A DNA stretch of 32,987 nucleotides from Fusobacteriota bacterium. Its GTDB lineage: Bacteria > Bacillota > TC1. Position 1 is the stretch's first letter. Each line of letters starts with the position of its first letter. Location: positions 1-32,987 of the forward strand of contig JAKEGG010000052.1 in the NCBI GenBank assembly GCA_022615965.1, in the 5' to 3' direction. The notes beneath the pieces were generated by a model. The model saw only the letters and a program-made list of their open reading frames with translations. It was not told the DNA's origin and did not search any database. The position numbers were made by a program, and so were the translations under genes. Below, piece after piece: positions 5,239 through 26,538 of the stretch.

Positions 5239-7959
5239 TTATTTTACGGTATCAGGTATTTTATTATCTTTGATTTTTCTAATAATAGCACCAGCTATCC
5301 TTCTGATTAATTTTACTAGTTCAGATACTAATAATACTGATAATGCTGTTAATAAAATTTTCAGCCACATTGTCAATGATAGGGGATTTGTATTAAATGC
5401 AGGACCACCAAACTGAGTAATCAACAATTGCAGAAAAAATGTACCTGCAAAAACAATCAGCATAACCTTATTATTAACTATATTCTTCAGCACGCTTGTA
5501 TTTCCCAGTTCTCTTGAATTAAAAGCATTTACCAGCTGGAATAATACAAATAATGTGAATATTACTGTGGCCATTTCATTATCTCCAGCTCCTAGGAAGT
5601 TAGTGATTTTTTGCAATAAAATAATGAAGGAAATATATATTCCATTGATAATTATATTACCTAGCATTTTTTTAGTAACTATATTAGCATGCCTTTTAGT
5701 AGGAGCATTTTTCATTAAATCATTTCTGATAGGCTCTAAACCAAGAGTTAAAGCAGGAGGTCCATCCATTATCAGGTTTATCCATAATATTTGTATCGCA
5801 TTAAAGGGTGCAGCAAAACCAATTAAAATAGTTGTTACAATAACAAATACTGAAGAAAGGTTGACAGTTAGCTGAAACTGTAGAAATCTTTGGAAATTCT
5901 CATATATGCCTCTGCCCCATTTAACAGCCTTAACAATAGTTGCAAAAGAGTCATCTAAAAGCACCACATCACTGGCTTCCTTGGAAACTTCAGTTCCAGT
6001 AATACCCATAGCAATTCCTACATCAGCGCTTTTGATTGCTGGAGCATCATTGATACCATCTCCTGTTACTGCAACTACATTGCCCCTGGCCTTTAACATA
6101 TTGACTACACGTAGCTTAGTTAAAGGTGTGCTCCTGGCTATAACCTTAATATCGTCTATTTTAGCCTCTAGCTCCTGATCAGTCATTTTTTCTATGTCCT
6201 GTGCCTTTAAAACCAAGGATTTATCATCTAATATACCGAGCTCCGCCGCTATGGCTCTTGCGGTAACAATATTGTCGCCTGTTAGCATTTTAACACTTAT
6301 ACCTGCTTGCCTGCAGTGGTTTATTGCTTCATAGACCTCTTTTCTGATTGGATCTTTGATTACTACAAACCCATCAAAAATCATTTCTCCTTCAATTAGC
6401 TTTCTATCCTCTTTATAGTTATATGCTTCTGTTAGCTCTTTATGGGCGAAGCCAATCAATCTCATACCTTGACTTTCAAAATAGTGAATTTGTTCTTCAA
6501 CATAGTTTATATGTTCTTTAAGTTCCTTTGCTCCACCATCAATGTAGATTTTATTGCAAAGATGCAAGATTTTTTCTGTACTACCTTTGGTATAAACTAT
6601 TTTTTTATTGTTTTCCTCAACAATAGTAGTCATGCTTTTTGTTTCTGAAGCAAATGGATATGAATAAATTATTTCTGCTTTTTTTCTACTTTCCAAATAG
6701 GATTCTTGGGTAACCTGATCATGAACTATCAGCAAAGCTCCTTCAGTAGGACTACCAATAAACTTTATCTGATCCTTTTCAATATATTCTAAATGTGCAG
6801 ATGTATTGATACTAAAATTATTTAATAGATATGGTGAAGTGGTTTGTTTAGGATCAATAAATTTCCCAGCTTCAAATACCTTTATGACTGTCATCTTGTT
6901 TTCAGTTAAGGTTCCTGTTTTATCTGAGCATATGATATTTGTGCTGCCAACTGTTTCACTGGCTACCAGATTTTTTACCAGAGCATTTTCTTTGGCCATT
7001 TTGATTATATTGATAGCTAAGGAAGCTGCTACTATTGTTGGTAGTCCTTCAGGCACTGCAGCGACTATCAGAACTATACTGCTGATAAAGGCTTCTGAAA
7101 CATTTTCAAAATTGATATTATTTGCCAAGAAAAGTTTTACTATTTGTATTATTAGGATGAAAACAGATAAGCTGATACCTATAATGCTGATAGCTTTACC
7201 TAGCTTTGCCAGCTTTTCCTGTAATGGTGTCAAGGTTTTATCCTGCTTTTTCAACTCATCGGCAATTTTACCAAATTCAGTATTATCTCCTACATCAGTT
7301 ATTACAGCTCTGGCATTGCCTGCAGTGATATATGTTCCTCCATATACCATATTAAATCTTTCAGCAAGAGGAGTATCTTCTTTTTTGATTATTTTTTTAG
7401 CATCTTTATTAACTGGCAGACTCTCTCCTGTAAGTGAAGCTTCATCTACTTGAAGCTCTAAACTTTCAATCAATCTGGCATCTACAGGAATTTTATCACC
7501 AGTTTCCAATTGGATTATGTCTCCAACAACAAGCTCTTTTTGAGGCACTAAGGTTATTATTCCATTTCTTATGGTTTTGACTGCAATATTTTCTTTGATC
7601 TTATTAAGAGCTTCAAAGGCTTTCTTAGATCTGCCTTCCATGAAAACTGTAATAGTCGTAGACAAAGCTATAGCAATCAAAATGCCAATAGATTCAACAA
7701 ACTCCCCATGCTGACCATTGACTATTTTAAATATATTCACACCTACAGTTATTGCTGCAGCAATGATCAATATAAATATCATTGGTTCAAATAAGGCTTC
7801 TAGAATTCTTTTAAACAAGCTTTTTTCTTTTTCCTTAGAAAAAGAATTTTCACCATAAAGACTTCTGGATTCGATTACTTGATCATCATTAAAGCCTTTT
7901 TCTTTGTCTGCTCCTAGGTTTTCTAATAGTTTGTCGATATTCTCCAAATAATTTTTCAT
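5239..7959 (-). CDS. P2A-type cation-transporting ATPase (Ca2+/Mn2+ exporter)
   Basis: This is a 906-residue P-type ATPase of the Ca2+ (PMR1/SERCA-like, YloB/YoaB) group, acting in the cytoplasmic membrane. Visible motifs are the actuator TGES at 177-180, PEGLP in membrane helix 4 at 303-307, the phosphorylated aspartate D346 in DKTGT, MLTGDN, and the hinge GDGINDAP. Helices 5-10 follow, and NLIMDGPPALTLG marks helix 6. An N-terminal cation-ATPase domain precedes helix 1. AGGAGG lies 6 bases before the ATG. The leader is a yybP-ykoY Mn2+ riboswitch, so manganese export is the most likely physiological role, with Ca2+ an alternative. Family membership is direct from sequence. The metal is inferred from the riboswitch. 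Confidence 0.95.
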   Translation of the reverse strand: MKNYLENIDKLLENLGADKEKGFNDDQVIESRSLYGENSFSKEKEKSLFKRILEALFEPMIFILIIAAAITVGVNIFKIVNGQHGEFVESIGILIAIALSTTITVFMEGRSKKAFEALNKIKENIAVKTIRNGIITLVPQKELVVGDIIQLETGDKIPVDARLIESLELQVDEASLTGESLPVNKDAKKIIKKEDTPLAERFNMVYGGTYITAGNARAVITDVGDNTEFGKIADELKKQDKTLTPLQEKLAKLGKAISIIGISLSVFILIIQIVKLFLANNINFENVSEAFISSIVLIVAAVPEGLPTIVAASLAINIIKMAKENALVKNLVASETVGSTNIICSDKTGTLTENKMTVIKVFEAGKFIDPKQTTSPYLLNNFSINTSAHLEYIEKDQIKFIGSPTEGALLIVHDQVTQESYLESRKKAEIIYSYPFASETKSMTTIVEENNKKIVYTKGSTEKILHLCNKIYIDGGAKELKEHINYVEEQIHYFESQGMRLIGFAHKELTEAYNYKEDRKLIEGEMIFDGFVVIKDPIRKEVYEAINHCRQAGISVKMLTGDNIVTARAIAAELGILDDKSLVLKAQDIEKMTDQELEAKIDDIKVIARSTPLTKLRVVNMLKARGNVVAVTGDGINDAPAIKSADVGIAMGITGTEVSKEASDVVLLDDSFATIVKAVKWGRGIYENFQRFLQFQLTVNLSSVFVIVTTILIGFAAPFNAIQILWINLIMDGPPALTLGLEPIRNDLMKNAPTKRHANIVTKKMLGNIIINGIYISFIILLQKITNFLGAGDNEMATVIFTLFVLFQLVNAFNSRELGNTSVLKNIVNNKVMLIVFAGTFFLQLLITQFGGPAFNTNPLSLTMWLKILLTALSVLLVSELVKLIRRIAGAIIRKIKDNKIPDTVK

Positions 7960-8317: not shown

Positions 8318-9993
8318 ACTATATGGCTAAATAAACCGAACATTAAAGGCATCGAAAAGATAAATGGCAAAGCATATCTATAGTATGCATTTACAGGTGA
8401 AGCAATGCATACCAAAACCAAAACCAACGCTGGACTAAGGACTATGATACCTTTATAATATTTACGATATCCCATATAGCCAGTCATAAATATCAGAAGC
8501 CAGACATGAAAACCAATATTTACAGCAAGACCCAGAACAGGAATATAGGGCAAAACTACTGTTGGATAATAGAGTATATCCCTTAATAGACCCAGATTAT
8601 TAAAGCTATATTCAAAGCCATCTTCAGTAATTGATGGATTAAAATTATGATAAATATACCAATTAGTTTTCAATGGGAAAAAATAGCCGTAGGTATTGTT
8701 CATGGTTGCTTCGAAATAGACACCTGGATGCTTGATAAATTGCTTCAGCCAAACCTGGAAATAATTTTTCAAGTCATCATCTTCATAAAAACGATTAAAT
8801 GAGTTTTTTACAGGATCAGAAATCTCAGGCTTATATCTATCTGCCAGTGTTTCATAATCCAGAAGTATATCTATTATCCCCTGCTCTTTTAAGGTAACCT
8901 CATTACCATAGTATTTGACATACCTGGCAGTTTGCTGAAAAGGTATAGATAAGCTTTCTCTTATGCTGCTTGGAGTGATTTTAAAATATGGTAGTACGAC
9001 CTTGGTATAGGACAAGGAAAAACCTATCACTAAAACTAAAATCAGCAATAGTTCTTTTTTCAACTTTTTATTAACCAAAATCAACCATGGAAAAGAAAGA
9101 AGAATCACATGAAAGCCATTATTTCTAAATAAGATGATCATCATCATCAAGATAAAAATACCAATATACTTCCATTTTCCCAACTTATTTTCTGCCAGGA
9201 GAATCTGGTGTAATATAATGATGTAAAACACGATCAAGGCAGAAAATATCACATCTTTAACACCTGTCATTGCATAAAAAGGATATATTGGCAGAATGCT
9301 ATATATCAATAATATGATTACTCGATATTTTGAGCTGACACCTATTCTTTTCAGATAAACTATACTATAGCTTAATGCTGTGGAGAGAATGGCAATTTGT
9401 ATGGCTGAATATATAAATAAGCCGAAATTATCATTTTCAAAAAAATGACCTAACTTAAGGGTGCTGCCTAACAATAATGTATGTATTACAGGGTGATGAT
9501 TGGTAATTATTACATTGCTATCAATTAGTTCAGAGAATAAATTATATAAATTAGTTACCCCAAAAAATTGCTTTATTTGATAACTTGAGTCTGGATTTAA
9601 CAATATCGGATAATAAGCTATGATATATGGCAACCAGGCAATTAACATGAAAATAAGACTAAAGATAAATGGGTGTTTATCAAATGCCGCTAACATTTTA
9701 TTGATTATTGAGAATCTACTTTGAAAATCACCTTCGAATAACCTTCCATTATTTACTTTTTTAAATAAATAATCTAGAACTTTATAGCTTATAAAAACAA
9801 AAAAAGAATAAATAAATATTGATAGTATAATGTTTACTGGACCACCTAAAATAAGGTTCCAGCTATTGCTTATAATGAAGCTAAAGCCAAACAATATAAA
9901 AAAGGCATAGAGGAAACTTAGTGCCAATATTGTTTTGCTGATCTTGTTTTTACCCTTATCTGCTATGTTTGAAGCTTTTTTATTTTTATCCAT
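8293..9993 (-). CDS. Polytopic membrane protein, DUF6020-like (GT-C fold)
   Basis: A 566-residue protein with about a dozen predicted membrane helices and a basic, Lys-rich N-terminal tail. The region LLNPDSSYQIKQFF after the first lumenal-type loop, plus TNHHPVIHTLLLG, resembles DUF6020 and the broader GT-C/PMT-like membrane glycosyltransferases, where an acidic residue after helix 1 is catalytic. The biological substrate cannot be told from sequence. It stands alone between two tRNA genes, with terminators on both sides. The ATG at 9991-9993 has no ribosome binding site. A -10-like TATAAA (10000-10005) preceded by TGC ends six bases before the ATG, suggesting a leaderless mRNA. Family assignment is by recalled motif and was not searched. 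Confidence 0.72.
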   Translation of the reverse strand: MDKNKKASNIADKGKNKISKTILALSFLYAFFILFGFSFIISNSWNLILGGPVNIILSIFIYSFFVFISYKVLDYLFKKVNNGRLFEGDFQSRFSIINKMLAAFDKHPFIFSLIFMLIAWLPYIIAYYPILLNPDSSYQIKQFFGVTNLYNLFSELIDSNVIITNHHPVIHTLLLGSTLKLGHFFENDNFGLFIYSAIQIAILSTALSYSIVYLKRIGVSSKYRVIILLIYSILPIYPFYAMTGVKDVIFSALIVFYIIILHQILLAENKLGKWKYIGIFILMMMIILFRNNGFHVILLSFPWLILVNKKLKKELLLILVLVIGFSLSYTKVVLPYFKITPSSIRESLSIPFQQTARYVKYYGNEVTLKEQGIIDILLDYETLADRYKPEISDPVKNSFNRFYEDDDLKNYFQVWLKQFIKHPGVYFEATMNNTYGYFFPLKTNWYIYHNFNPSITEDGFEYSFNNLGLLRDILYYPTVVLPYIPVLGLAVNIGFHVWLLIFMTGYMGYRKYYKGIIVLSPALVLVLVCIASPVNAYYRYALPFIFSMPLMFGLFSHIVKKQAESK

Positions 9994-9999
9994 AGTTAC

Positions 10000-10028
10000 T
10001 TTATAGCATATATTAAGTAATTTTAAAA
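10000..10028 (-). promoter_or_regulatory. Promoter that would give a leaderless mRNA
   Basis: Extended -10 TGC-TATAAA (10000-10008) with a weak TTTTAA at -35 (10023-10028). Transcription would start on or next to the ATG of the membrane protein gene, which has no Shine-Dalgarno sequence. Confidence 0.45.
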
Positions 10029-10046
10029 CAATTTATATTGTTTTAA
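10023..10046. repeat. AT-rich inverted repeat between divergent promoters
   Basis: TTAAAACAAT and ATTGTTTTAA form 10-bp arms separated by TTAT. The palindrome covers the presumed -35 regions of both the minus-strand membrane protein gene and the plus-strand tRNA-Arg promoter. It could be an operator or chance in AT-rich DNA. Confidence 0.6.
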
Positions 10047-10066
10047 GTTGGATTTTGTGGTAATAT
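10038..10066 (+). promoter_or_regulatory. Promoter of tRNA-Arg
   Basis: TTGTTT (10038-10043), 17 bases, and TAATAT (10061-10066) with an extended TG at -15/-14. The transcript would start near 10073, just before a terminator-like hairpin (10076-10107). Confidence 0.65.
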
Positions 10067-10075
10067 AAGGGTTGT

Positions 10076-10107
10076 AAAAAAGCTAACCTTGATTTGGTTG
10101 CTTTTTT
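10076..10107 (+). terminator. Terminator-like hairpin in the tRNA-Arg leader
   Basis: AAAAAAGC-t-AACC pairs with GGTT-GCTTTTTT around a 7-base loop, with one bulged T, and the stem ends in six T residues. It lies between the tRNA promoter and the tRNA. It could be an attenuator, a processing signal, or the leftover terminator of a lost gene. Confidence 0.6.
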
Positions 10108-10112
10108 AAAGT

Positions 10113-10189
<77 letters not shown>

Positions 10190-10205
10190 GTATACAACTC
10201 ATAAC

Positions 10206-10238
10206 AAAAAAAGACACATTAACATGTGTCTTTTTTTT
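10206..10238. terminator. Bidirectional intrinsic terminator
   Basis: AAAAAAAGACACAT pairs with ATGTGTCTTTTTTT around a four-base TAAC loop. It ends tRNA-Arg on the plus strand and the ferritin-like gene on the minus strand, 22 bases past that gene's stop. Confidence 0.9.
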
Positions 10239-10260
10239 ATTGTTAAATCAAATGAGCTCT

Positions 10261-10752
10261 TTATTTTATATTGCAACTAAAACCATATTCAGAGGCTTCT
10301 GGTAAAGTCCCATTTTTTTCCAGAAAATTGATTAGTTCAGTGATCAAATGACAGTGGTCCTCTTCTTGACTGATTAAAAACTCAAAAATAGCCTTTTCTT
10401 CAACTGTTTCAGCTTTTACCTTTAACTCTTTATATAAATTTATACTTTCTTGCTCCTTTAATAGCGCTTCCTTATAAAAATCCAGTTCCTTATTAACAGA
10501 ATCAGATTTTATATTCACATCCGGAGCATCTTTAAAAATGCTTTTAACCTCACTTAAAAAGTCTCTGTCAGAAAGTTTATTTCTAACATTATGTAATAAG
10601 TCATCTATGATATTGGCATGTACTCTTTCATCCTTAGCCATTAAAATACAGACATTTCTTAAACCTTCATTATCCTTATATAGCTCTGCTTGTTTTAGAT
10701 AATATTGCTCCCCTTCTCTTTCCATCGCAAATGCAAATTCTAGATTATTCAT
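10261..10752 (-). CDS. Ferritin-like / rubrerythrin-family protein
   Basis: A 163-residue four-helix protein. The diiron-type pattern is seen as EREGEQYY near residues 11-18, the ExxH pair E42-x-x-H45 in KDERVHANI, EQESINLY near 100, and a second ExxH at 130-133 in QEEDHCHLI. It lacks the C-terminal rubredoxin domain of true rubrerythrin, so it is a stand-alone erythrin-like domain. Such proteins in anaerobes are linked to peroxide or oxidative stress defence, but the electron donor here is unknown. AAAGGAGG lies before the ATG. It follows the iron alcohol dehydrogenase gene by 73 bases with no clear terminator, so read-through is possible. It ends at the terminator shared with tRNA-Arg. Confidence 0.85.
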   Translation of the reverse strand: MNNLEFAFAMEREGEQYYLKQAELYKDNEGLRNVCILMAKDERVHANIIDDLLHNVRNKLSDRDFLSEVKSIFKDAPDVNIKSDSVNKELDFYKEALLKEQESINLYKELKVKAETVEEKAIFEFLISQEEDHCHLITELINFLEKNGTLPEASEYGFSCNIK

Positions 10753-12774: not shown

Positions 12775-12800
12775 TACTTACTGTTTTCTGATCAAAAACA

Positions 12801-12837
12801 AAAAAACAAGCCACTTTTTTAAGTGGCTTGTTTTTTT
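12801..12837. terminator. Bidirectional intrinsic terminator
   Basis: AAAAAACAAGCCACTT and AAGTGGCTTGTTTTTT are perfect 16-bp arms with a TTTT loop. It separates the convergent hemolysin III gene (plus) and carbamate kinase gene (minus). Confidence 0.93.
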
Positions 12838-12854
12838 ATTAAAATTAATTTTGA

Positions 12855-13790
12855 TTATTTAACGATTTTTGTTCCAGCTTCAGCAACGATTGAATCTCTT
12901 AATGAATCAAGAGATGTAATGATACCTTGACCTCCAGCTTCAACAAACTCCATAATTGCCTCAACCTTAGGACCCATGCTGCCTTTACCAAACTGACCTT
13001 CATCTAAATATTTCTTAGCAGTAGCCAAGTCTATTTTTGAAAGGTTTTCTTGATTTGGCTGTCCAAAGTTAATAGCAACATTAGGAACATCTGTAGCAAT
13101 TACTAAATAATCAGCTTCTAATTCTTTAGCAAGTAAGCTACTAGCCAAGTCTTTATCAATAACAGCTTCAACACCACTTAATTGACCATCATCAGCTTTA
13201 ACAACAGGGATTCCTCCACCGCCAACAGTAACAACGATACAACCAGCTTCAATTAAATCTTTAACTTCATCTAATTCAACAACGTCTATAGGTCTTGGTG
13301 AAGCTACAACTTTTCTCCAACCTCTACCTGAATCTTCAACCCAGTTTTCACCTTTAGCGATACCTGCTTTAGCTTCATCTTCAGTATAGAAGGCACCTAC
13401 TGGCTTAGTAGGATGTTCAAAAGCTTTGTCATTTTTATCTACTACAACCTGAGTAAGTAAAGTTACTACTTTTTTATCAATTCCTTGCTTTTTTAGTTCA
13501 TTGCCAATATTTTGTTGGATCATATAACCAATCAAGCCTTGGCTTTCAGCTCCACATACATATAGTGGCATTGCTGGAACCTGGTCTCTTGCCGCAGCAT
13601 TTTGCAATAAAATATTACCAACCTGAGGACCATTGCCATGAGCTATAACAACCTCATAGCCTTCATTAACTAGTTTTACAATATTTTCACTTGCGTTAAG
13701 AACATTTTCCATTTGTTCTTCAATAGTACCTGCCTGTTTAGGCGAAAGTATAGCATTTCCTCCTAAGGCAACAACAACTTTTTTACTCAT
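12855..13790 (-). CDS. arcC: Carbamate kinase
   Basis: Carbamate kinase transfers the phosphate of carbamoyl phosphate to ADP, giving ATP by substrate-level phosphorylation. The 311-residue protein shows the amino acid kinase fold motifs: VVVALGGNAIL at the N-terminus, VIAHGNGPQVGN near residue 50, CGAESQGLIGYMIQQ, VVTVGGGGIPV near residue 200, and GSMGPKVEA near the end. I use the ATG at 13788-13790, which has AAGGAG at 13799-13804; an earlier in-frame codon at 13829 lies in the leader hairpin. It has its own promoter. It lies directly after the hydantoinase gene but is separated from it by a terminator. No arginine deiminase or ornithine carbamoyltransferase is nearby, so its carbamoyl phosphate source is probably the ureide pathway of its neighbours. 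Confidence 0.95.
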   Translation of the reverse strand: MSKKVVVALGGNAILSPKQAGTIEEQMENVLNASENIVKLVNEGYEVVIAHGNGPQVGNILLQNAAARDQVPAMPLYVCGAESQGLIGYMIQQNIGNELKKQGIDKKVVTLLTQVVVDKNDKAFEHPTKPVGAFYTEDEAKAGIAKGENWVEDSGRGWRKVVASPRPIDVVELDEVKDLIEAGCIVVTVGGGGIPVVKADDGQLSGVEAVIDKDLASSLLAKELEADYLVIATDVPNVAINFGQPNQENLSKIDLATAKKYLDEGQFGKGSMGPKVEAIMEFVEAGGQGIITSLDSLRDSIVAEAGTKIVK

Positions 13791-13817
13791 AATTAATTCT
13801 CCTTTTAAAAAAATTAA

Positions 13818-13848
13818 AAGACACACCACATAAATGGCAGTATGTCTT
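13818..13848 (-). terminator. Attenuator-like hairpin in the arcC leader
   Basis: On the minus strand AAGACATACTGC pairs with GTGGTGTGTCTT (12 bp with G-U pairs) around a 7-base loop, followed by TTAATTTTTTT, then the AAGGAG of arcC. It starts about 12 bases after the expected transcription start. Confidence 0.6.
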
Positions 13849-13976: not shown

Positions 13977-15326
13977 TTAACATTTAATAAATTTACCAGC
14001 AGGATCACCTATTAAAAATCTTCCTTCTTTATAGGCAATTCCCCCTCTTAGTATTGTCATTACCGGGTAACCCTTTAATTCCAGACCACTAAAAGTAGAA
14101 TAATCTGCAGCGGTATGAACTAATTTATCACTAATTTCTAATACAATATCCGGATCAATTACAACAAGGTCAGCATAACTTCCAGCTTTGATTGTACCCT
14201 TCATAGGATAAAGTCCGAATTTTTTTGCTGGATTTGTTGCCAACAGACTTGCTAAAGTTGGCAAATCCATTTTGCCTGCGGCTACAGTCTGACTATAAAT
14301 TACTGGTAACAAAGTTTCAGTTCCAGGAATTCCACCATTAGTTTCATAAAATGTATTGGCAAAAAACTTTTGGTGCCTGCTATAGGCACAATGATCTGTA
14401 GTAATAAAATCAAAGGTGCCCTTCAGAAGTTCATCCCATAGGAGTAGTCTTTCTTCCTCGCTTCTAAGTGGAGGTTGCATCACGAAAAGCTGTCCATCTT
14501 CTCTTTTATAGACATCCTTATTAAGCATTAAATAGTGAGGACAAGTCTCACCAGTTATTTTTACACCTCTAGCTTTTGCTTCTCTGATCAATTTGCCAGT
14601 TATACCAGAGGATACATGAACTATATGTGCTGATAAATCTTCGAGTTCACACATCTCAATAATTCTCTGAACTGCATATGTCTCTGCCTGGCTAGGTCTG
14701 CTATCACTATGATATTCAACTGCAGTTTTTCCAGCGTTTTTAAGGTCTTTGATTGCCTCGGCAACAATACTGTTATCTTCAGCATGAATCGTAACTTCCA
14801 AACCTGCTATCTTTGCATTTCTTAAAACATCGAAAATATGATCATAATCCATGATGAAGCCATAGGTAGTATAAAGCTTCAAGCTATTTATACCATAACT
14901 TCTAAAGGCTTTTAGCTCATCAAGTGTATAAGGTCTGTTTCCAGATAAAGTCATATGAACAGTAAAATCAACAAAATTATGTCCTAAAGCCTCTTTTACT
15001 CTATAATCAAGTGAATCCAGAAGACTTAATTCATCCCTAGGCTCTGCATAATCAACCACTGTTGTCACACCACCACATAAAGCAGCTCGTGAGCCAGTTT
15101 CAAAGTTATCAATGGTATAGACCTTATCAATTGGCATCTTATAATGAACATGGGCATCAATAACTCCAGGAAAAACTATCTTTCCTGAAACATCAATAAT
15201 TTCATCTCCAGTTCCAGCAACAATACTTTCTGCTATCTGGGCTATTTGCTCACCTTCGATCTTTAAATCCCCTTTTATTTCTTTTTCTTCAAGAACAATT
15301 GTACCACCTTTTAGTATGATACTCAT
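13977..15326 (-). CDS. Dihydropyrimidinase / hydantoinase-type amidohydrolase
   Basis: A 449-residue cyclic amidohydrolase that opens hydantoin-, dihydropyrimidine- or allantoin-like rings to carbamoyl amino acids. The binuclear metal site is complete: H59 and H61 in DAHVH, the carboxylated lysine K150 in INSLKLYTTYGF, H181 in HAED, H237 in HVSS and D311 in TTDHC. This spacing matches dihydropyrimidinases closely. The start ATG follows AGCAGGTG and lies 15 bases after the preceding PLP-enzyme stop, so the two are co-transcribed. Together with carbamate kinase and the ssnA remnant it resembles the E. coli ygeZ/hyuA neighbourhood used in anaerobic purine/ureide breakdown. The true substrate is an inference; allantoinase or a D-hydantoinase are alternatives. 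Confidence 0.9.
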   Translation of the reverse strand: MSIILKGGTIVLEEKEIKGDLKIEGEQIAQIAESIVAGTGDEIIDVSGKIVFPGVIDAHVHYKMPIDKVYTIDNFETGSRAALCGGVTTVVDYAEPRDELSLLDSLDYRVKEALGHNFVDFTVHMTLSGNRPYTLDELKAFRSYGINSLKLYTTYGFIMDYDHIFDVLRNAKIAGLEVTIHAEDNSIVAEAIKDLKNAGKTAVEYHSDSRPSQAETYAVQRIIEMCELEDLSAHIVHVSSGITGKLIREAKARGVKITGETCPHYLMLNKDVYKREDGQLFVMQPPLRSEEERLLLWDELLKGTFDFITTDHCAYSRHQKFFANTFYETNGGIPGTETLLPVIYSQTVAAGKMDLPTLASLLATNPAKKFGLYPMKGTIKAGSYADLVVIDPDIVLEISDKLVHTAADYSTFSGLELKGYPVMTILRGGIAYKEGRFLIGDPAGKFIKC

Positions 15327-15341
15327 TGGAGCACCTGCTTT

Positions 15342-16586
15342 CTAATAACCAATTTTCTTTAAAGCTTCTGCTAATCCTTCAGATGTAGGTTCAACCTTAA
15401 TAGGCTCACCAGCTGCTTCAATAGCATTTTTAACATCCTTTAAGCCATTTCCAGTTACTGCACATACAACTGATTCATCTTTCTTAATAACACCATTAGC
15501 AACTAACTTTCTTAAACCAGCCATACCTGCACAACCAGCGGGCTCACCAAACACACCTGAATGTTTTCCCATAAATCTCATAGTATCTAAAATTTCTTCA
15601 TCAGTTACAGTTTCCCAAACACCATTTGATGCTTCAACAGCTCTAATGGCTTTAACAGCATTTCTTGGAACTCCAACTGCAATACTATCAGCTATAGTAT
15701 TTTCTTCTTCTGGCTTCCATTCTCTTTTTTCCATCCAGGCATGAGCAAGTGGCGCACAGCCTTCGGCTTGAATTCCAGCTACTCTAGGAAGCTTATTGAT
15801 AAATCCAGCATTATATAGATCTACATACCCCTTATAGGCACCTGCAATAGTACATCCATCTCCAACAGAAAATACGATCCAGTCTGGAACTTCCCAGTTC
15901 ATCTGCTCACAGGTTTCAATAGAAACAGTCTTTTTACCTTCTACACAATATGGATTAACAGCAGCGTTTCTATTGTACCACCCAAATTTTTCAATCGCTT
16001 CAGCTGAAAGCTTGAAAGTTTCTTCATATGAGCCTTGAACGCTCATAACATTTGCACCAAAGATCTTTAATTGAGCTACTTTTCCTTGTGGAGCACGACC
16101 AGGAACAAAGATAACAGATTTAATACCAACACTAGCAGCATTACCAGCAGTTGAAGATGCAGCATTACCTGTCGAAGAACAACAAATTACTTCAGCACCT
16201 TCTTCTAAAGCCTTGGCAACGGCGATGCTTGAAGCTCTATCCTTTAATGAAGCAGTAGGATTGATACCATCATCCTTGACATAAAGAGTATCTAAGCCAA
16301 CTTCTTTTGCTAATTCATCAGCTTTATATAGAGGTGACCAGCCTACTCTCAGCTTGCCTTTAGGACCATTCTCTTCAACTGCCATAAATGGCTCATATCT
16401 CCACATGCTATAGTCTTTATTATTTTGCAAAGATTCTTTAGAAATGATTGTTTTGATATAGTCATAATCATAAACTACATCAAGTATCCCTAAAGAAGGA
16501 CCGCAATCATCACAAGTATATCTGCCTTTTTCCGGCTTATATTGTTTTCCACAGTTAACACATTCCAGGTATTTTACATTTTTCAT
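15342..16586 (-). CDS. thrC: Threonine synthase-like PLP-dependent lyase
   Basis: A 414-residue fold-type II PLP enzyme. It begins with a zinc ribbon (C9, C12, C25, C28), as in many threonine synthases. The PLP lysine is K115 in NPTASLKDRA. The phosphate-binding SSTGNAASSTAGNAA follows, and a GDGCTIAG-type loop is near residue 240. Threonine synthase converts O-phosphohomoserine to threonine, but no hom or thrB gene is near. It is instead co-transcribed with a hydantoinase, where homologous clusters carry 2,3-diaminopropionate ammonia-lyase (YgeX), another fold-type II enzyme. A catabolic role is therefore possible. I start at the ATG 16584-16586, because the GTG nine bases upstream is part of the AAGGAGTG ribosome binding site. 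Confidence 0.85.
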   Translation of the reverse strand: MKNVKYLECVNCGKQYKPEKGRYTCDDCGPSLGILDVVYDYDYIKTIISKESLQNNKDYSMWRYEPFMAVEENGPKGKLRVGWSPLYKADELAKEVGLDTLYVKDDGINPTASLKDRASSIAVAKALEEGAEVICCSSTGNAASSTAGNAASVGIKSVIFVPGRAPQGKVAQLKIFGANVMSVQGSYEETFKLSAEAIEKFGWYNRNAAVNPYCVEGKKTVSIETCEQMNWEVPDWIVFSVGDGCTIAGAYKGYVDLYNAGFINKLPRVAGIQAEGCAPLAHAWMEKREWKPEEENTIADSIAVGVPRNAVKAIRAVEASNGVWETVTDEEILDTMRFMGKHSGVFGEPAGCAGMAGLRKLVANGVIKKDESVVCAVTGNGLKDVKNAIEAAGEPIKVEPTSEGLAEALKKIGY

Positions 16587-16623
16587 AGGTTTCACTCCTT
16601 AAAAATTATTCAATTACTAAATA

Positions 16624-16681: not shown

Positions 16682-17446
16682 CTACACTTCCAAAATACTT
16701 TTTAAAAACTCTTTTGTTCTTTCCTCTTTTGGATTTTTAAACAAATCCTCAGGAGAGCCTTCTTCTAAAATCTTGCCCTCATCCATAAAAAGAACTCTAT
16801 CAGCCACTTCTTTTGCAAAGCCCATCTCATGGGTAACTACAATCATGGTCATACCTTCCTTAACCAGATTTTTCATTACAGTCAGAACTCCACCAACTAA
16901 TTCTGGGTCAAGAGCACTGGTAGGTTCATCAAAAAGCATCATATCAGGCTTCATGGCCAAAGCTCTGGCAATAGCTACTCTTTGTTGTTGTCCCCCTGAT
17001 AAGCTGTGAGGATACGAATTTTCCTTATCTGTTAATTCAATCTTTTCTAAAAGTTTTCTCCCTTCTAAAATTACTTGTTCTTTATTTTCACCAAGCGCAA
17101 TAACCGGCCCTTCGATAATATTTTCCATTACAGTTTTGTGTGGAAAAAGATTAAAATTCTGAAAAACCATACCCATTCTTTTTCTGATTTTTACAATTTC
17201 TTTTTTAGGTAATTCATGGTATTTCTTTTTCTTTTCATCATAGTCCAGTCCAACTGGTTTTCCTTCGAAATAAATCAAACCCTTATCATGTTTCTCTAAA
17301 TGATTAAGACATCTTAAAAATGTGCTTTTACCACTTCCTGAAGGTCCAATAATAACTACGACTTCTCCTTTTTCTACCTTTAGCTCAATGCCCTTTAAAA
17401 CCTCATGGCTTCCAAAGCTTTTATGTAATCCCTTAACTTCAATCAT
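16682..17446 (-). CDS. Polar amino acid ABC transporter, ATP-binding protein
   Basis: A 254-residue ABC ATPase of the GlnQ/ArtP/TcyN type that powers amino acid uptake from the cytoplasmic side. Walker A is GPSGSGKST near residue 35, the Q-loop is FQNFNLFPH, the signature is [15 protein letters not shown], Walker B is [13 protein letters not shown], and the H-loop is VVTHEMGFA. Compared with most GlnQ proteins there is a short Lys-rich insertion before the Q-loop ([16 protein letters not shown]). Its start overlaps the permease stop by four bases, the classic coupled arrangement. It is the last gene of the binding protein-permease-ATPase unit. Confidence 0.95.
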
Positions 17447-18111
17447 CGGCTATATTCTCCTCTTAAATTAAACTTCTTACTTAATAAATATATTATTACC
17501 ATGATCGAGGAAGTCATAATAAGATATATAGCTGCTGCCGTAACATATATTTCCATTGATCTGACATAGGTTGCATCTAAAATAGTAGCCTTTCTCATCA
17601 GCTCTACTAAAGATATTACTGAAACCAAAGCAGTATCTTTCATAGCAGTAATACACTCATTACCAAAAGGCAAAACAACGACTTTGATGGCTTGAGGTAA
17701 TATGATCCTTCTCATGCTTTGCCAGCTTGTCATGCCAATAGATAAGGCCGCTTCATTTTGACCTTTGTTGATAGAAGTTATCCCTCCTCGGATGATCTCA
17801 GAAATATAGGCTCCTTCGCAAACACTTAAGGCACATACTCCTGCAGTAAAGGCAGAAAGCTCTATACCTAGGCTAGGTAAGCCAAAATACCAGATAAACA
17901 GCTGTACTATCAAGGGTATGCCACGTATTGACCAGGTATAAAACCAGGAAATGCCATTTAAAACTTTAAATCTTGATAATCTAAATAAAGCTGAAATCAG
18001 ACCTAATATCGAACCAAAAAAGATAGCTAAGACTGTTAGTAAAACAGTCATTTTAGCTCCTTCTAACAATAGAGGTAAAATTTTAAATAAAAAATTTAAA
18101 TCCATCAGCAT
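17443..18111 (-). CDS. Polar amino acid ABC transporter, permease
   Basis: A 222-residue membrane permease of the HisM/GlnP family. It has about five helices and the EAA loop ([28 protein letters not shown]) that contacts the ATPase near residue 105. Only one permease gene is present, so it probably works as a homodimer. The start has two nearby ATGs (MLMD); either is possible. It starts five bases after the binding protein stop and overlaps the ATPase gene by four bases. Confidence 0.94.
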
Positions 18112-18116
18112 ATATC

Positions 18117-18902
18117 CTATTCAGGGATTAGTCCTGTAATATTATCCTTTCCAAACCATTTCTCTGCTATCTGCTTTAAAGTACCATCTTCTTTAAGTTC
18201 CTTTAGGGCCTTATTTACTTTTTCAACCAACTCTTTGTCTTCTTGTCTCATACCTATACCATATTGTTCAGTAATCAACTTTTCCGGCAATAAAGAAAAC
18301 TTATTCCCCTGTTCATTGATCAAATATGCACCAACTACTGTATCTACAGCAATACAATTGATTCCATCTGCTCTTTTCACAGCTAAATCATTAAAGGCTG
18401 CTGGGTAGGCATCATAAAATTTAACATTAGTCTTATAACCTAAATTTTCAAGTCCTTCAGCGCCAGAGCTGCCAGTCTGAACTCCAATGATATTTTTACT
18501 TAGATCCTTGATATCAACTGAGGTATCACCTTTATTTACTGCAATTGATATACCGGCATTAAGATAAGGCTCTGAAAAGGCAATTTCTTTTTTCCTGTCT
18601 TCTGTTATAGTCATACCACAAATTACCATGTCGATCTTTTTAGTTTTTAAAGATTGTACTATACCTTTCCAATCAGATGGCTGCCACTTTAGCTTAACAC
18701 CTATCTTCTTAGCAATAGCCTCACCTAAATCAACATCAAAACCTACTATGGCATCTGTATTCTTATCATGAAAAGTCATTGGTGGAAAGGCATCATCGAT
18801 TCCAACTATCAATGTATCTGCATCTTCCTTTTTACTACAACCTGCTGTAAAAACCAGCACAAAACCTAATAATATAACTACTAAAACTGCTAACTTTTTC
18901 AT
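18117..18902 (-). CDS. Amino acid ABC transporter substrate-binding lipoprotein
   Basis: A 261-residue extracellular solute-binding protein (family 3). Its signal peptide ends in the lipobox FTAGC, making C22 the predicted lipidated residue. The family signature VGFDVDLGEAIAKKIG and the binding motif EDRKKEIAFSEPYL near residue 105 are clear. Family 3 proteins bind polar amino acids. The exact ligand is not readable from sequence, but the nearby serine/glycine and ureide catabolic genes make a fermentable amino acid likely. A good AGGAGG precedes the ATG. Only 57 bases separate it from the upstream flavoprotein gene and no terminator is seen there, so it may be read from the leader at 20.8 kb. 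Confidence 0.94.
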   Translation of the reverse strand: MKKLAVLVVILLGFVLVFTAGCSKKEDADTLIVGIDDAFPPMTFHDKNTDAIVGFDVDLGEAIAKKIGVKLKWQPSDWKGIVQSLKTKKIDMVICGMTITEDRKKEIAFSEPYLNAGISIAVNKGDTSVDIKDLSKNIIGVQTGSSGAEGLENLGYKTNVKFYDAYPAAFNDLAVKRADGINCIAVDTVVGAYLINEQGNKFSLLPEKLITEQYGIGMRQEDKELVEKVNKALKELKEDGTLKQIAEKWFGKDNITGLIPE

Positions 18903-18959: not shown

Positions 18960-20210
18960 TTAAACTAGTTTTGAATTATTTGTAATACTTAAATTTGCAA
19001 CGAAAGCACTCGAAAAGGCAAATTGAATATTATATCCTCCAGTACTACCATCTATATCCAGTGCTTCACCAACAATATACATGCCTGGATATTTTTTAAC
19101 TTCATATTTATTTAAATCTATTTCCTCTAAAGCTATACCACCAGCTGTCACCATGCTATCCTTAAAACCTCCGGTATTTTCAACTTGATATTCGTCTTCA
19201 AAGAATAATTTCATAAGATCTTTAAGCTTGTTATTACTTACTTCCTTTAACCAACCCTTATCGTCGAGTTCTGTTCTTAATAGCTGCTTTTCTATAAACC
19301 TTCTTGGTAAAACCACTTCTGACTCATTTAATGTTTTACTGACAGAAGATATGGTTTTTATACTGTTGTTTTCTTTCAATTTAATTAATTTTCCAACAGC
19401 CATTTCGAAGTTTAAGTCTGGACAATAGTTGATATGAATTTTAGTTCCACTTTCTAAGTATCTGGATATATTCAATATTCCTGGACCCGTAAAATATTTA
19501 TGTGCAAATAATATACTGTTTTCTTCTTGATGTTTTTTTCTATCAATGACCTTTATCTTTACCTTATTGATAGATACCCCTGCTAAATCTTCAAAAGGAT
19601 AATTCTTTACAAAGACAGGAGTTAAGGCAGGCTTTAATTCTTTGATTGCTATTCCTAATCTAAGCAAAGAGGGTATTATTGTAGCATTAGACCCAGTAGC
19701 TGGATAGCTTTTTCCACCTGTAGCAATAATTAGTTGCTGACACTTATATATAGTTCCTCCTTGAGATTTTATTTTAAATATGCCATTATACTCGATGTCT
19801 ACGATCTCTTCTTCAGTAATTAACTGAAATTTATTCTTCTTAGCTTTAGCTAAAAGCTTATCTATCAGATTTTGAGGCTTTTCCTTTAAGTAAACTTTAT
19901 TATTATCTTTAATGCAGGTTTCAACTCCCAGACCAGTAAGATATTGTTCTAAATCCAGGTTATTAAATTTGTATAAGGTTTTTCTGATTAGCTTTCCATT
20001 ATCTCCATACTTATCAATAAATTCTTTGATCTTTACTATATTGGTGATATTGCCTTGACCCCCTCCTGAAGCTATTAGCTTCAAGCCAGTCCTTACTGTA
20101 TTATTTATTATAAGCTTTGGCCCAGGAGAAGTGTTTATACTTGAAAAAAACAAACCTGATACTCCTGCGCCTACTACTATTATATTATATACTTTATCTT
20201 TACTCATCAT
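18960..20210 (-). CDS. BaiN/HI0933-family FAD-dependent oxidoreductase
   Basis: A 416-residue flavoprotein. The N-terminus YNIIVVGAGVSGLFFSS is the FAD Rossmann motif, followed by SGGGQGNITN, and GGKSYPATGS near residue 165. The C-terminal TAGGIALEEIDLNKYEVKKYPGMYIVGEALDIDGSTGGYNIQFAFSSA is diagnostic of the HI0933 family. Some members act on bile-acid intermediates; most have no known substrate, and none can be assigned here. Two adjacent ATGs are possible starts, with AAGG upstream. It begins 11 bases after the stop of the ssnA-like remnant, and the two probably share a transcript. Confidence 0.9.
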   Translation of the reverse strand: MMSKDKVYNIIVVGAGVSGLFFSSINTSPGPKLIINNTVRTGLKLIASGGGQGNITNIVKIKEFIDKYGDNGKLIRKTLYKFNNLDLEQYLTGLGVETCIKDNNKVYLKEKPQNLIDKLLAKAKKNKFQLITEEEIVDIEYNGIFKIKSQGGTIYKCQQLIIATGGKSYPATGSNATIIPSLLRLGIAIKELKPALTPVFVKNYPFEDLAGVSINKVKIKVIDRKKHQEENSILFAHKYFTGPGILNISRYLESGTKIHINYCPDLNFEMAVGKLIKLKENNSIKTISSVSKTLNESEVVLPRRFIEKQLLRTELDDKGWLKEVSNNKLKDLMKLFFEDEYQVENTGGFKDSMVTAGGIALEEIDLNKYEVKKYPGMYIVGEALDIDGSTGGYNIQFAFSSAFVANLSITNNSKLV

Positions 20211-20221
20211 ATTTCCTTATT

Positions 20222-20491
20222 TCATGTTTTCTTAATATTACTATATTTTTTATGAGTTGTCTTGATATTGACAAAAAAGCAGCCACTAATAGTTCCATAC
20301 ATATGTGTATGAGCATTGATAAAGCCTGGAACAATTATCGAGTCATCACAGCAAATAGCTTGAGTATTCGTACAGGATGTCAACATATTATTTGGTTGAA
20401 TATCAGTTATTATGCCATTATTTATTACTAAGCCATGATCTTTTTTCAAACCGTCTTTAGTTAATAAGTACTTCCCTTTTATTACCAGCAT
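20222..20491 (-). pseudogene. Truncated SsnA-like amidohydrolase (N-terminal remnant)
   Basis: An 89-codon frame with a good start (AGGAGG before the ATG). It encodes the N-terminal beta-sandwich and first metal motif of a cytosine deaminase/SsnA-type amidohydrolase: MLVIKGKYLLTKDG, then IIVPGFINAHTHMYG at residues 53-67. After HTHMYG the family similarity stops, and a short unrelated Lys-rich tail ends at a TGA. Intact relatives are about 400-450 residues, so more than 80 percent is missing, including the other metal ligands. It cannot be an active amidohydrolase. Loss by internal deletion up to the flavoprotein gene is the simplest reading. In E. coli and clostridia ssnA belongs to the purine/ureide cluster that also contains hydantoinase and carbamate kinase, both found nearby here. 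Confidence 0.8.
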
Positions 20492-20541
20492 TTTTTCCTC
20501 CTAAATATCATATTCAATCAAAATCTTTACTTTTTTTATAC

Positions 20542-20633
20542 AAAAAAGCATATGTCCAAAAATTAACTGGCATATGCTACATTAAATCTATTGATGACTC
20601 CAGTTCCCAGAACCTAAGTCTAGATTTCTTATT
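20542..20633 (-). ncRNA. Structured RNA candidate, copy 1 (nearest the gene)
   Basis: Minus-strand RNA with nested stems AAAUCU/AGAUUU, GACUU/GAGUC and GUUC/GAAC with a UGG loop, then terminator hairpin AGCAUAUGCCA/UGGACAUAUGCU and UUUUUU. All three stems pair fully in this diverged copy, including the position that is an A-A mismatch in copies 2 and 3. Confidence 0.6.
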
Positions 20634-20643
20634 TATTTGTATT

Positions 20644-20734
20644 AAAAAAGCATATGTCCAATACAATACTGGCATATGCTAACTAAATCCTTCTTTGACT
20701 TCAGTTCCCAGTACCTAAGTCCAGATTGCTTATT
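20644..20734 (-). ncRNA. Structured RNA candidate, copy 2
   Basis: Same fold as the other copies: AAUCU/GGAUU, GACUU/AAGUC, GUAC-UGG-GAAC (one A-A mismatch), then a terminator hairpin and UUUUUU. About ten AT-rich bases link it to the next unit. Confidence 0.6.
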
Positions 20735-20744
20735 TATTTATATT

Positions 20745-20835
20745 AAAAAAGCATACGTCCAATACAATACTGGCATATGCTAACTAAATCCTTTTTTGAC
20801 TTCAGTTCCCAGTACCTAAGTCCAGATTGCTTATT
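20745..20835 (-). ncRNA. Structured RNA candidate, copy 3 (first transcribed)
   Basis: Arms on the plus strand: outer stem 20824-20828 with 20787-20791, middle stem 20818-20822 with 20798-20802, apical stem 20812-20815 with 20805-20808. The terminator hairpin is 20750-20781, with the U run at 20745-20750. It begins a short distance after the only clear promoter-like sequence of the array. Confidence 0.6.
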
Positions 20836-20879
20836 CGCTTTTTCTATTATCATTATATCTGTTTTACAGAATAAGCAAT
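20831..20879 (-). promoter_or_regulatory. Putative promoter/operator of the tandem RNA leader
   Basis: TTGCTT (20874-20879) and TATAAT (near 20855) are present, but the spacing is about 15 bases, shorter than ideal. CTGT-AAA-ACAG lies between them. GAATAAGCAA of the array and TTGCTTATTC of the promoter form an inverted pair. The segment 20831-20850 is repeated exactly at 32631-32650. Confidence 0.5.
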
Positions 20880-20952: not shown

Positions 20953-20982
20953 AAAAAAGGAGCAGAATATCTTTCTGCTCCT
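20953..20982 (-). terminator. Intrinsic terminator after glyA
   Basis: AGGAGCAGAA and TTCTGCTCCT are perfect 10-bp arms with a 5-base loop; on the minus strand TTTTTT follows. It is 29 bases past the glyA stop. Confidence 0.93.
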
Positions 20983-21010
20983 CGAAAACAAAATTTCTTA
21001 GTTAAACAAA

Positions 21011-22354
21011 CTATTTAACCCATTTTTCTTGACTTGCATCTTGTGTTTTAGCATATAGATCCTTGTCAACTTCATTACCAGCCATAACAGCTTCTACCAA
21101 ATCAGTATAGGCTTTATAATCTGAATATAAAGGTACTTCTTGGCATAATGCCTGAACATCTTTTGCTATACCATCTTTATCATTTTCAAAATGATCATCG
21201 CTTAAAGCTCTGCTGATAATTTCAGCTATTTTAGCCATATGCTCTTCATTAAAACCTCTGGTTGTAGCTGCAGCTGCTCCTAAACGAATACCACTTGTGA
21301 TGAAAGGACTTTGAGTATCAAATGGAATTCCATTTTTGTTGCAGGTAATACCAATTTCATCTAATCTATGCTCAGCTTCTTTACCAGTTAAACCTAAGCT
21401 AGTCATATCAACCAACATAACGTGGTTGCTTGTTCCACCAGATACTACTCTGATATTGTGTTTCATTAAGCCTTCTGCTAATGCAGCAGCATTTTTCACA
21501 ACTTGTTTTTGATATTCAACAAATGAAGGCTCCAAAGCTTCTTTGAAAGCAACAGCTTTTGCAGCAATAACATGCATCAAAGGTCCACCTTGTAGGCCTG
21601 GGAATACAGCCTTATCAATTGCTTTTGCATGCTCTTCTTTACATAAAATCATTCCACCACGAGGACCTCTTAAAGTCTTATGGGTAGTTGTAGTTACAAA
21701 ATCAGCATAAGGAACCGGAGATGGATGAACACCAGCAGCAACTAAACCTGCAATATGAGCCATATCAACCATCAAGTAAGCTCCTACTTTGTCGGCAATC
21801 TCTCTGAATCTTTTAAAATCGAAAATTCTTGAATAAGCACTTGCTCCAGCTACGATCAATTTTGGCTTGCTCTCAACAGCTAATCTCTCTACTTCATCAT
21901 AATCGATTTGCTCTGTTTCTTTATCAACACCATAGTGAACAAAGTTAAAGTACAGACCTGAAATATTAACTGGGCTACCATGTGTCAGGTGTCCACCATG
22001 AGCAAGGCTCATTCCTAATACAGTATCTCCTGGCTTTAATACAGCCAGGTAAACAGCTTCATTCGCACTTGCTCCAGAGTGAGGCTGAACATTGGCATGA
22101 TCTGCACTAAATAATTTTTTTGCTCTGTCTCTGGCAATATTTTCAGCTACATCTACATGCTCACAACCACCATAATATCTTTTTCCTGGGTATCCTTCTG
22201 CATATTTATTTGTTAATACAGAACCTTGAGCCTGCATAACTGCTGGGCTTACGAAGTTTTCTGAGGCAATCAATTCGATTTTATCAGTTTGTCTGCTTCT
22301 TTCATCTTCTAGAACCTTGGCAATTTCAGGGTCATAATTTACTAATCTTCTCAT
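21011..22354 (-). CDS. glyA: Serine hydroxymethyltransferase
   Basis: GlyA interconverts serine plus tetrahydrofolate with glycine plus methylene-tetrahydrofolate in the cytosol. At 447 residues it is longer than the usual 410-430, because of a C-terminal extension. Family motifs are IASENF near residue 29, [18 protein letters not shown] at 51-68, and the PLP lysine K226 in [23 protein letters not shown] precedes the ATG. It has its own strong promoter and terminator. It sits directly downstream of the glycine reductase operon, which suggests that it supplies glycine from serine for reduction, besides its one-carbon role. The codon pattern and structure look normal. Confidence 0.97.
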
Positions 22355-25236: not shown

Positions 25237-26538
25237 CTAAAATACAGTTTGTTCAGAAACAGGTGTTTCTAAAGCCTTTAAAGCCTTTTTAACAAGTTTC
25301 CTTCTCAACTCTTTTTCATCTTCCATGCTTAATGCTGGATTTCCTAATGGATAAGGAATTGCTACCGTAGGTACAATTCTATTTGCTCCTACTGTCAATG
25401 AAATAGGCACAACTGTGCACATATGAACAACTGGGAATCCAGCTCTTTCAATTTCTTTAACCATCGTTGCCCCGCAACGAGTGCATGTTCCTCAGGTGGA
25501 AGTTAAAATAACAGCATCTACACCTGCTGCTTTTAAGTCTTGAGCAATCTCAGTTGCGAATTTTTTTGAATTGGCAACTGAAGTTCCATTTCCTACTGTT
25601 GTGTAATAAAATTCATGTAAGCTGCCAACCTCTCCGTTGCTTTCCATTTCTCTTAAAACATCTAACGGTAATACTCTGTCTAGATCCTGATTTGCATATA
25701 CAGGATCATAGCCACCATGAGCAGTTTCACCATTGCTTGGATCAAAGTTATCCATACCAGCGATGGAATACTTGCCGTATTTAGAAGCACTTGAAGCTTC
25801 TATTCTATCTGGATTACTTTTCGGCACTGGTCCACCAGATGAAACCAAAGCTATTTTAACTTTCGTTACATCTTGAACAGGCTCTGCAGGATCCACTCTG
25901 TCAAAGACAGGCATTGGATATTCTGTTTCAAATCCTTCACCATTGATTTTCTTGATCAAAAGATTTACAGCTCTTTTAGCTCCTCTTTCTTCACAGAAAA
26001 TATTTTTCCTGACTCCTCTAGGCATATAGCCTTCAGCTTCAGGTGTGCCAATAGCTTCACCTTTACCTAATTTCAGAGCTAAAGGTGCTATTTTACTTAA
26101 AGCATCCTTCATTCCTGCAGCTGAATTTGCAGTTTCTATCATATAGATATCTTTCTTATACATATCAGCTCCAGGATTTTCATTATACATTCCTGATACT
26201 ACAGGAATGTTTAGCTTTTCTACCACTGCTTTTCCTACAGCTCCACATGCCACACCATAACGTCCGGCATTAAAAGCTGGTCCAGCTATTACAACATCTG
26301 GATTTTCTTCAGAAATCATTTTTATTATTGTATCTAAAGCTTCATCCACATTTTCGTTAAAATATGAGTCTCCACAAATCACAGTGGAAGTAATTTTTCC
26401 CTCATCTCCTAAAATAGCTTGAAGTCCCATACCTGGACCTTTTACCCCAGCTACTTTTTCAGGAGTGTAGTCAGCTTTATCTTCTCCGCCGATTCCACCA
26501 TAAAATTGGTTAATGTAGTGTACTACTTTAATTCCCAA
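25237..26538 (-). CDS. grdB: Glycine reductase component B selenoprotein GrdB (Sec349)
   Basis: GrdB is the selenocysteine subunit of the substrate-specific protein B. It binds glycine together with the GrdE pyruvoyl subunits and passes the carboxymethyl group to GrdA. The full protein is 433 residues, close to known GrdB proteins (about 436). An in-frame UGA (25492-25494) is codon 349 in TSTUGTCTRCGATMV, the known active-site motif; similarity continues through to the stop at 25237. A 7-bp hairpin (25464-25480) begins 11 bases after the UGA and fits a bacterial SECIS. The start is TTG (26536-26538) behind AAAGGAGG. A standard gene caller would split the gene into 348- and 75-residue pieces. 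Requires SelA-D (outside the window). Confidence 0.95.
25464..25480 (-). promoter_or_regulatory. Candidate bacterial SECIS hairpin of grdB
   Basis: RNA UCGUUGC-GGG-GCAACGA, a 7-bp perfect stem, starting 11 bases 3' of the UGA. The spacing matches the E. coli fdhF SECIS. The loop here is a GGG triloop, unlike the GU-containing fdhF loop. Confidence 0.65.

Follow-up and report, generated by a model that had tools for sequence, protein, structure and literature searches.

A rare structured RNA with built-in terminators at uricolytic gene clusters: a candidate transcription-antitermination switch in one, two or three copies

Introduction

Little is understood of how gut bacteria regulate their genes for uric-acid metabolism, as stated in the study that only recently characterised the reductive uric-acid pathway of anaerobes (PMC12507026). 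The genes of this pathway encode XdhD, YgfK/UacX, SsnA, HyuA, carbamate kinase, YgeY and YgeX. In the stretch of bacterial DNA considered here (the window, 32,987 nucleotides), three copies of a short sequence with the look of a structured RNA lie in front of what appears to be a truncated ssnA gene. This raises the question of what an RNA of this kind does at such a place and why it should be present three times in a row. A sequence-only reading had favoured a multi-gated riboswitch or attenuator, with independent small RNAs as the alternative.

The tandem array

A single array was delimited in the window by Tandem Repeats Finder (20531-20835; period 101, 3.0 copies, 89% matches). The three minus-strand units of 101-102 bp, head to tail, that the sequence-only reading had described are thereby borne out, as they are by the homologues in ten other genomes presented below. 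Each unit has two stems, the outer P1 and the inner P2, which closes a 13-nt loop, GGNNCYGGGAACU; an intrinsic terminator of its own completes it. In the window, P1 reads AAUCU/GGAUU or AGAUU, P2 reads GACUU/AAGUC or GAGUC and the loop reads GGU(A/U)CUGGGAACU, after which come a short linker, the terminator hairpin and U6. The presence of a hairpin and U6 in every copy was correctly seen, with folds of -11.9 to -13.7 kcal/mol. From upstream to downstream, the features are the following:

20957-20983, minus strand: terminator of the upstream glyA (21011-22354)
20852-20878, minus strand: putative promoter TTGCTT-N15-TATAAT, directly upstream of unit 1, proposed from sequence only
20745-20828, minus strand: unit 1, from P1 to U6 (P1, P2 with its loop, terminator); covariance-model E 4.5e-14
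20824-20828 and 20787-20791, minus strand: the two strands of P1 of unit 1
20798-20822, minus strand: core of unit 1, GACUUAGGUACUGGGAACUGAAGUC, with P2 closing the conserved loop
20751-20780, minus strand: terminator hairpin of unit 1, -13.3 kcal/mol; CCAG at 20770-20773, complementary to loop CUGG; U6 at 20745-20750
20644-20727, minus strand: unit 2, from P1 to U6; 98% identical to unit 1
20697-20721, minus strand: core of unit 2, P2 and loop
20650-20679, minus strand: terminator hairpin of unit 2, -13.7 kcal/mol; CCAG at 20669-20672; U6 at 20644-20649
20542-20626, minus strand: unit 3, from P1 to U6; diverged, 83% identity to units 1 and 2
20596-20620, minus strand: core of unit 3, GACUUAGGUUCUGGGAACUGGAGUC, P2 and loop
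20548-20577, minus strand: terminator hairpin of unit 3, -11.9 kcal/mol; CCAG at 20567-20570; U6 at 20542-20547

Each window unit folds more stably than nearly all of its dinucleotide shuffles, by 2.7-3.9 SD (z -2.7 to -3.9). In their own genome they match the covariance model with E ~1e-14, a value obtained with a model built partly from the window units themselves. The same search returned three copies only, all of them in the array, and weaker matches that correspond to a terminator and to coding sequence. Since glyA has its own terminator, the array is not merely the tail of the glyA operon. The short spacing of the TTGCTT and TATAAT boxes makes this promoter weak alone, and it is absent from the list of a consensus promoter scan of the window. 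Relatives carry TTGCAA-N16-TATAAT at the matching place (L002, and also upstream of the G005 unit), and a promoter-like box stands directly upstream of the units in several loci.

Homologues and their distribution

Beyond the window, 14 units were found at 11 loci in 10 genomes, which brings the set, with the window array taken as one locus, to 17 units at 12 loci in 11 genomes from three families of the phylum. Building a covariance model from homologues, as had been advised, did yield matches in further genomes together with covariation and a fixed gene context: model R1 led to G083 (two loci) and G118, while the units of G006-G009 were found by reading upstream of ssnA, where the same order recurs, and that of G005 with the loop pattern. 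Three relatives from the window's genus (G001, G002 and G004) carry two tandem units each, of types a and b. Among them, identity is 81-88% for a with a, 92-95% for b with b and 69-73% for a with b. Orthologous units are thus more alike than a is to b, from which it follows that the tandem arrangement is older than these three species and that both copies have been kept.

No further lineage was found in about 398 genomes of the phylum (models R1 and R2 and a composite pattern) or in a single pattern scan of 85,000 species, and the RNA is therefore rare. In the 398 genomes the composite pattern loop-CCGG-T5 returned the expected seven CCGG-type genomes and nine genomes with chance matches in or beside genes; its CUGG-type version returned genus members only, plus sites judged from the matched letters to be chance. 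Within the stretch read, the RNA is absent from several ssnA-bearing relatives (families f15, f48 and f29). It is also missing from G003 (76% complete) despite the presence of hyuA; both G003 and G005 are without a close ssnA.

Several groups of candidates were rejected. Matches of R1 outside the family (e.g. L019, L021, L034, L022 and window 12782-12841) are terminators or coding repeats, and those of R2 in G021, G055, G302, G056 and others are due to chance. The 37 stretches from the 85,000-species scan proved on inspection to be real only at the loci of the known genus and G083. In two stretches of Clostridiaceae C70 (L048 and L049) a P2-like hairpin is retained, but neither a complementary arm in a terminator nor the gene context is present. 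Pattern GGNNCYGGGAACT, run on 20 genomes, gave 40 sites that were inspected, the G005 site alone being real. The window match at 12782-12841 is an AT-flanked hairpin, AACAAGCCACTTTTTTAAGTGGCTTGTTTTTTT, located where the carbamate kinase and HlyIII genes converge; it is a bidirectional terminator to which R1 also gives a score.

Conservation of the RNA structure

The loop GGNNCYGGGAACU is invariant in the 17 units apart from its N, N and Y positions. The pairing of P2 survives complete replacement of its sequence, being GACUU/AAGUC, GGCUU/GAGCC, GACUC/GAGUC, AUUCC/GGAGU (G007) or GUCUC/GAGAC (G009). Standard pairs occupy 54 of 60 P2 cells over 10 distinct rows (G006, with an internal loop in P2, left out and one bulged C in G008 skipped), against a mean of 45.0 and a maximum of 52 in 2000 trials in which the 3' strands were exchanged among units. 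When P1 and P2 are taken together in 11 units, six pairs show two-sided changes and covariation reaches 0.544, whereas shuffling gives 0.244 and sliding the partners no more than 0.202, in an alignment that was fitted by hand with N padding and so leans towards the proposed structure. The R1 alignment made with MAFFT points the same way. In family f2, P1 is less clear.

Of the three nested stems originally proposed, P1 and P2 are kept and the apical one is not: within the loop, position 16 is A, G or U, and position 22 is A in every unit. The changes in the outer and middle stems of the diverged copy do maintain pairing, whereas the apical replacement of A-A by U-A is loop variation and not a compensatory change. 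Selection on RNA structure, suggested at first from the window alone, is supported by homologues that keep P1/P2, the loop and the terminator.

At the gathering threshold, no Rfam 15 family matches the window array or the arrays of other lineages, and lenient searches up to E 1-5 gave chance matches only; the sequence-only reading had not recognised the fold as a known riboswitch. It had raised the possibility of a conserved RNA named after ssnA; neither Rfam 15 at that threshold nor the literature searches, in which subscription literature was covered in part, returned one.

Gene context and the derived window locus

Every unit sits in a reductive uricolytic (purine) cluster, either before ssnA, between hyuA and the carbamate kinase gene, or before an M20-type peptidase, and in every lineage it has the orientation of the next gene. 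In G001, G002 and G004 the order is glyA, two small ORFs, units a and b, full-length ssnA, an xdhABC-type molybdenum hydroxylase and a preA-type flavoprotein. In G007 it is, by sequence likeness, lyase, hyuA, arcC, the unit, ssnA, xdhA, xdhB, xdhC and a preA-type fusion; the units of G006, G008 and G009 also lie just upstream of ssnA. In G118 the unit is placed between hyuA and arcC (lyase, hyuA, unit, arcC, a UbiD-like ORF, ssnA, xdhABC, preA-type fusion), as it is in G005 (lyase, hyuA, unit, arcC) and at one locus of G083 (hyuA, unit, arcC). The other locus of G083 reads glyA, unit and an ORF that resembles M20 peptidase/YgeY, as judged from its sequence. The same genes make up the syntenic purine cluster described previously (PMC4016543).

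Some further features of these regions were recorded. The two small ORFs between glyA and the array (L009 of G001, 9593-10307; 99 and 142 aa) occur in G001, G002 and G004 and are absent in the window; neither has a match in Pfam, nor the larger one in NCBIfam. In the hyuA-arcC units of G083 and G118 (L035 and L029), P1 and the terminator are separated by an additional hairpin of the form CCC(N)..GGG. In the uricolytic operon of G118, xdhB and xdhC are separated by two frames that resemble transposase halves (L098, 6055-7532, minus strand). An Azaaromatic (yjdF) riboswitch lies in the same 18-kb region as the uricolytic genes of G005 (L209, 4716-4816, plus strand).

Downstream of the array, the window carries:

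20222-20491, minus strand: 89-codon remnant of ssnA, whose residues 1-69 match residues 2-70 in a 435-aa SsnA
18960-20210, minus strand: HI0933-like / TIGR00275 FAD-binding protein
16682-18902, minus strand: ABC transporter of the polar amino-acid type (binding protein, permease, ATPase)
15342-16595, minus strand: PLP-dependent lyase (PALP, threonine-synthase-like), with a homologue before hyuA in G005, G007, G083 and G118
13977-15326, minus strand: hydantoinase/dihydropyrimidinase (HyuA), TIGR02033 above cut-off
12855-13829, minus strand: carbamate kinase (ArcC), TIGR00746 above cut-off

The flavoprotein gene and the amino-acid transporter are where the sequence-only reading had put them, and the truncated ssnA is indeed an 89-aa remnant; its position as the first gene is a derived state, since the full-length ssnA of the relatives heads an ssnA-xdhABC-preA operon. 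The remnant shows 45% identity over 69 residues, compared with 86-89% among the ssnA genes of three relatives. The window order is thus three units, ssnA remnant, HI0933-like flavoprotein, amino-acid ABC transporter, lyase, hyuA and arcC, and xdhABC-preA is missing at this locus. In G001, G002 and G004, ssnA and hyuA are about 20 kb apart on one contig, so that the arrangement in this 80% complete genome would be simply explained by a deletion through which the downstream genes became joined to the ssnA leader.

Elsewhere in the window, a SECIS_4 element (25454-25491, minus strand) comes right after the in-frame stop of a GrdB-type ORF (25492-26538; glycine/sarcosine reductase), a selenoprotein gene that an ordinary translation breaks at its UGA codon, and a 21-bp tandem repeat of 2.1 copies (6475-6518) lies within the ORF at 5239-7959.

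Taken together, the RNA of the window and its relatives is a real, conserved and previously uncatalogued structured RNA that has its own terminator, is tied to uricolytic genes and stands in tandem in the window's genus. Its attachment to this cluster in three families makes it a small, well-defined candidate regulator that lends itself to testing, and it may be a natural sensor of urate-type compounds.

Loop-terminator complementarity and a proposed switch

The tetranucleotide CYGG of the loop is matched in every one of the 17 units by an exactly complementary CCRG within the 5' arm of its terminator. Loop CUGG goes with arm CCAG in the nine units of the window's genus and loop CCGG with arm CCGG in the other eight, and none of the 17 has a mismatched version. 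The terminator sequences otherwise vary widely among lineages, with folds of -10.6 to -22.7 kcal/mol across units, and the pairs flanking CYGG/CCRG, checked by eye, are not conserved. As the tetranucleotide is present in 6-45% of shuffled arms, unit by unit (the arms of w3 and G005 being shortened in that comparison), the match is notable only through its agreement across lineages. The covariation amounts to one U/A to C/G change, which separates one genus from the rest. One two-sided evolutionary event, together with a tetranucleotide so frequent in shuffles, makes this good but not conclusive evidence.

Pairing between loop and arm would break the top of the terminator, and in each of the 17 units the complementary segments predict a structure that excludes the terminator and stands beside one regulated gene. 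Cis control of transcription termination is on these grounds very probable, and the multi-gated attenuator of the sequence-only reading gains support from the retained P1/P2, loop and terminator and from the constancy of a single gene cluster. Since the terminators are far stronger than a four-base-pair helix, termination should be the default, and the loop-arm pairing must be stabilised by something.

In the mechanism that we propose, each unit would by itself form a whole transcription switch acting in cis, in which P1 and P2 fold first and present the loop. By default CCRG would pair inside the terminator hairpin and RNA polymerase would stop (OFF). The loop region would bind an effector, for which a small molecule from purine or uric-acid breakdown is the likeliest candidate; CYGG would then capture CCRG of the terminator 5' arm in a pseudoknot, the terminator could not close and polymerase would read through into the uricolytic genes (ON). 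Two or three units in series would act as successive gates, with lower leakage and a steeper response. Pseudoknot formation, the nature of the effector, the way in which tandem units work together and the ON direction are inferred, the last because it fits a catabolic operon. A conserved structured RNA with covariation and a fixed metabolic gene context makes the riboswitch reading of the units plausible, and we lean towards a transcription-antitermination leader that is probably an ON riboswitch for a purine-breakdown intermediate, that is, a small-molecule switch. The more specific picture is tentative: the units may belong to a riboswitch class not described so far, with uric acid, 2,8-dioxopurine (yanthine) or a ureido intermediate as its ligand, which would activate the anaerobic reductive uric-acid pathway through a loop-terminator pseudoknot, in natural one-, two- and three-gate versions. 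A ligand from the purine pathway is the best guess because all loci share this pathway and nothing else, and a purine-type ligand as such is possible rather than probable.

Alternative explanations

The most serious competitor, unlikely as we judge it, is a protein-responsive attenuator in which an antiterminator, or a protein that blocks an antiterminator (cf. BglG/SacY, PyrR, ANTAR), reads the P2 loop. A short hairpin with an invariant loop that overlaps a terminator is also a typical protein target, PyrR leaders are likewise repeated with a terminator each, and a pseudoknot of four base pairs could equally be bound by protein. However, the gene neighbourhoods read showed no regulator of the antiterminator type, the conserved sequences of RAT, PyrR and ANTAR sites differ from those of the units, and a 13-nt loop that is invariant on both sides is more like an aptamer pocket.

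Somewhat less probable still is the same kind of switch with another effector, such as glycine, carbamoyl phosphate or a pterin/molybdenum cofactor, an idea to which the adjoining carbamate kinase, glyA and molybdenum hydroxylase genes lend some weight. Against it stand the uric-acid pathway as the sole common denominator of the loci and the lack of any match to the Moco or glycine RNA families of Rfam.

The small-RNA alternative, in which trans-acting RNAs of about 85-90 nt would be repeated for dosage and lie beside uricolytic genes by chance, appears improbable. One promoter-like box followed by a terminator would yield discrete short RNAs, and a terminated leader may accumulate. Yet the units are always found at the uricolytic cluster and in the orientation of the next gene while occupying different joints (ssnA, arcC, M20-type ORF), as expected of an element acting in cis, and the loop complements the unit's own terminator.

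A repetitive or mobile intergenic element devoid of regulatory function, of which head-to-tail copies and the 98% identity of units 1 and 2 are reminiscent, is very hard to reconcile with the confinement of all three copies in the window's genome to the array, with paralogues a and b kept apart across three species and with a single gene context throughout.

Comparison with known systems

In guanine-class purine riboswitches, terminator control is common and the fold is a three-way junction with two kissing loops; the units here have neither such a fold nor such a sequence, and no Rfam match. These riboswitches and their xanthine variants (PMC9295807) share with the units an association with purine-related genes. 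NMT1 (xanthine-I) is likewise a two-stem RNA, of about 45-50 nt, that controls purine-oxidation genes and binds xanthine and uric acid (PMC7373994, PMC8266621). It is proteobacterial, however, and has its conserved residues in junctions instead of the terminal loop. It also controls ribosome binding, makes almost no use of terminators and is an OFF switch, whereas every unit here has a terminator. Its J1/J2 junction consensus was not found in the units, given that cmscan returned no match and provided that Rfam 15 includes the NMT1 model.

A likeness in mechanism exists with the HMP-PP (thiS motif) riboswitch, which is very compact, has a ligand-binding structure that overlaps an intrinsic terminator and forms a P2-loop pseudoknot that competes with the terminator, ligand leading to readthrough (ON) (PMC6478431), much as proposed for the units. 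By analogy it provides a precedent for compact, terminator-overlapping ON switches with such a pseudoknot (PMC6478431). The HMP-PP aptamer is embedded in the terminator stem, whereas the units have a separate upstream P1/P2 and share only CCRG with the terminator; its thiamin context and thiS consensus also contrast with the uricolytic context of the units, for which Rfam gives no match.

Several units of one class before one gene are likewise known from pseudo-cooperative tandem riboswitches, defined as complete units of aptamer plus platform (reviewed in PMC9481103), and from the triple-tandem c-di-GMP riboswitch (PMC4759541). Those examples come from established classes, whereas the class here is undescribed. 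At least two complete units (putative sensor plus terminator) stand in series in the window, with three, and in G001, G002 and G004, with two each. Units that occur singly, in pairs and in a triplet offer a natural and clean case for the effect of stacked terminators on leakage and steepness.
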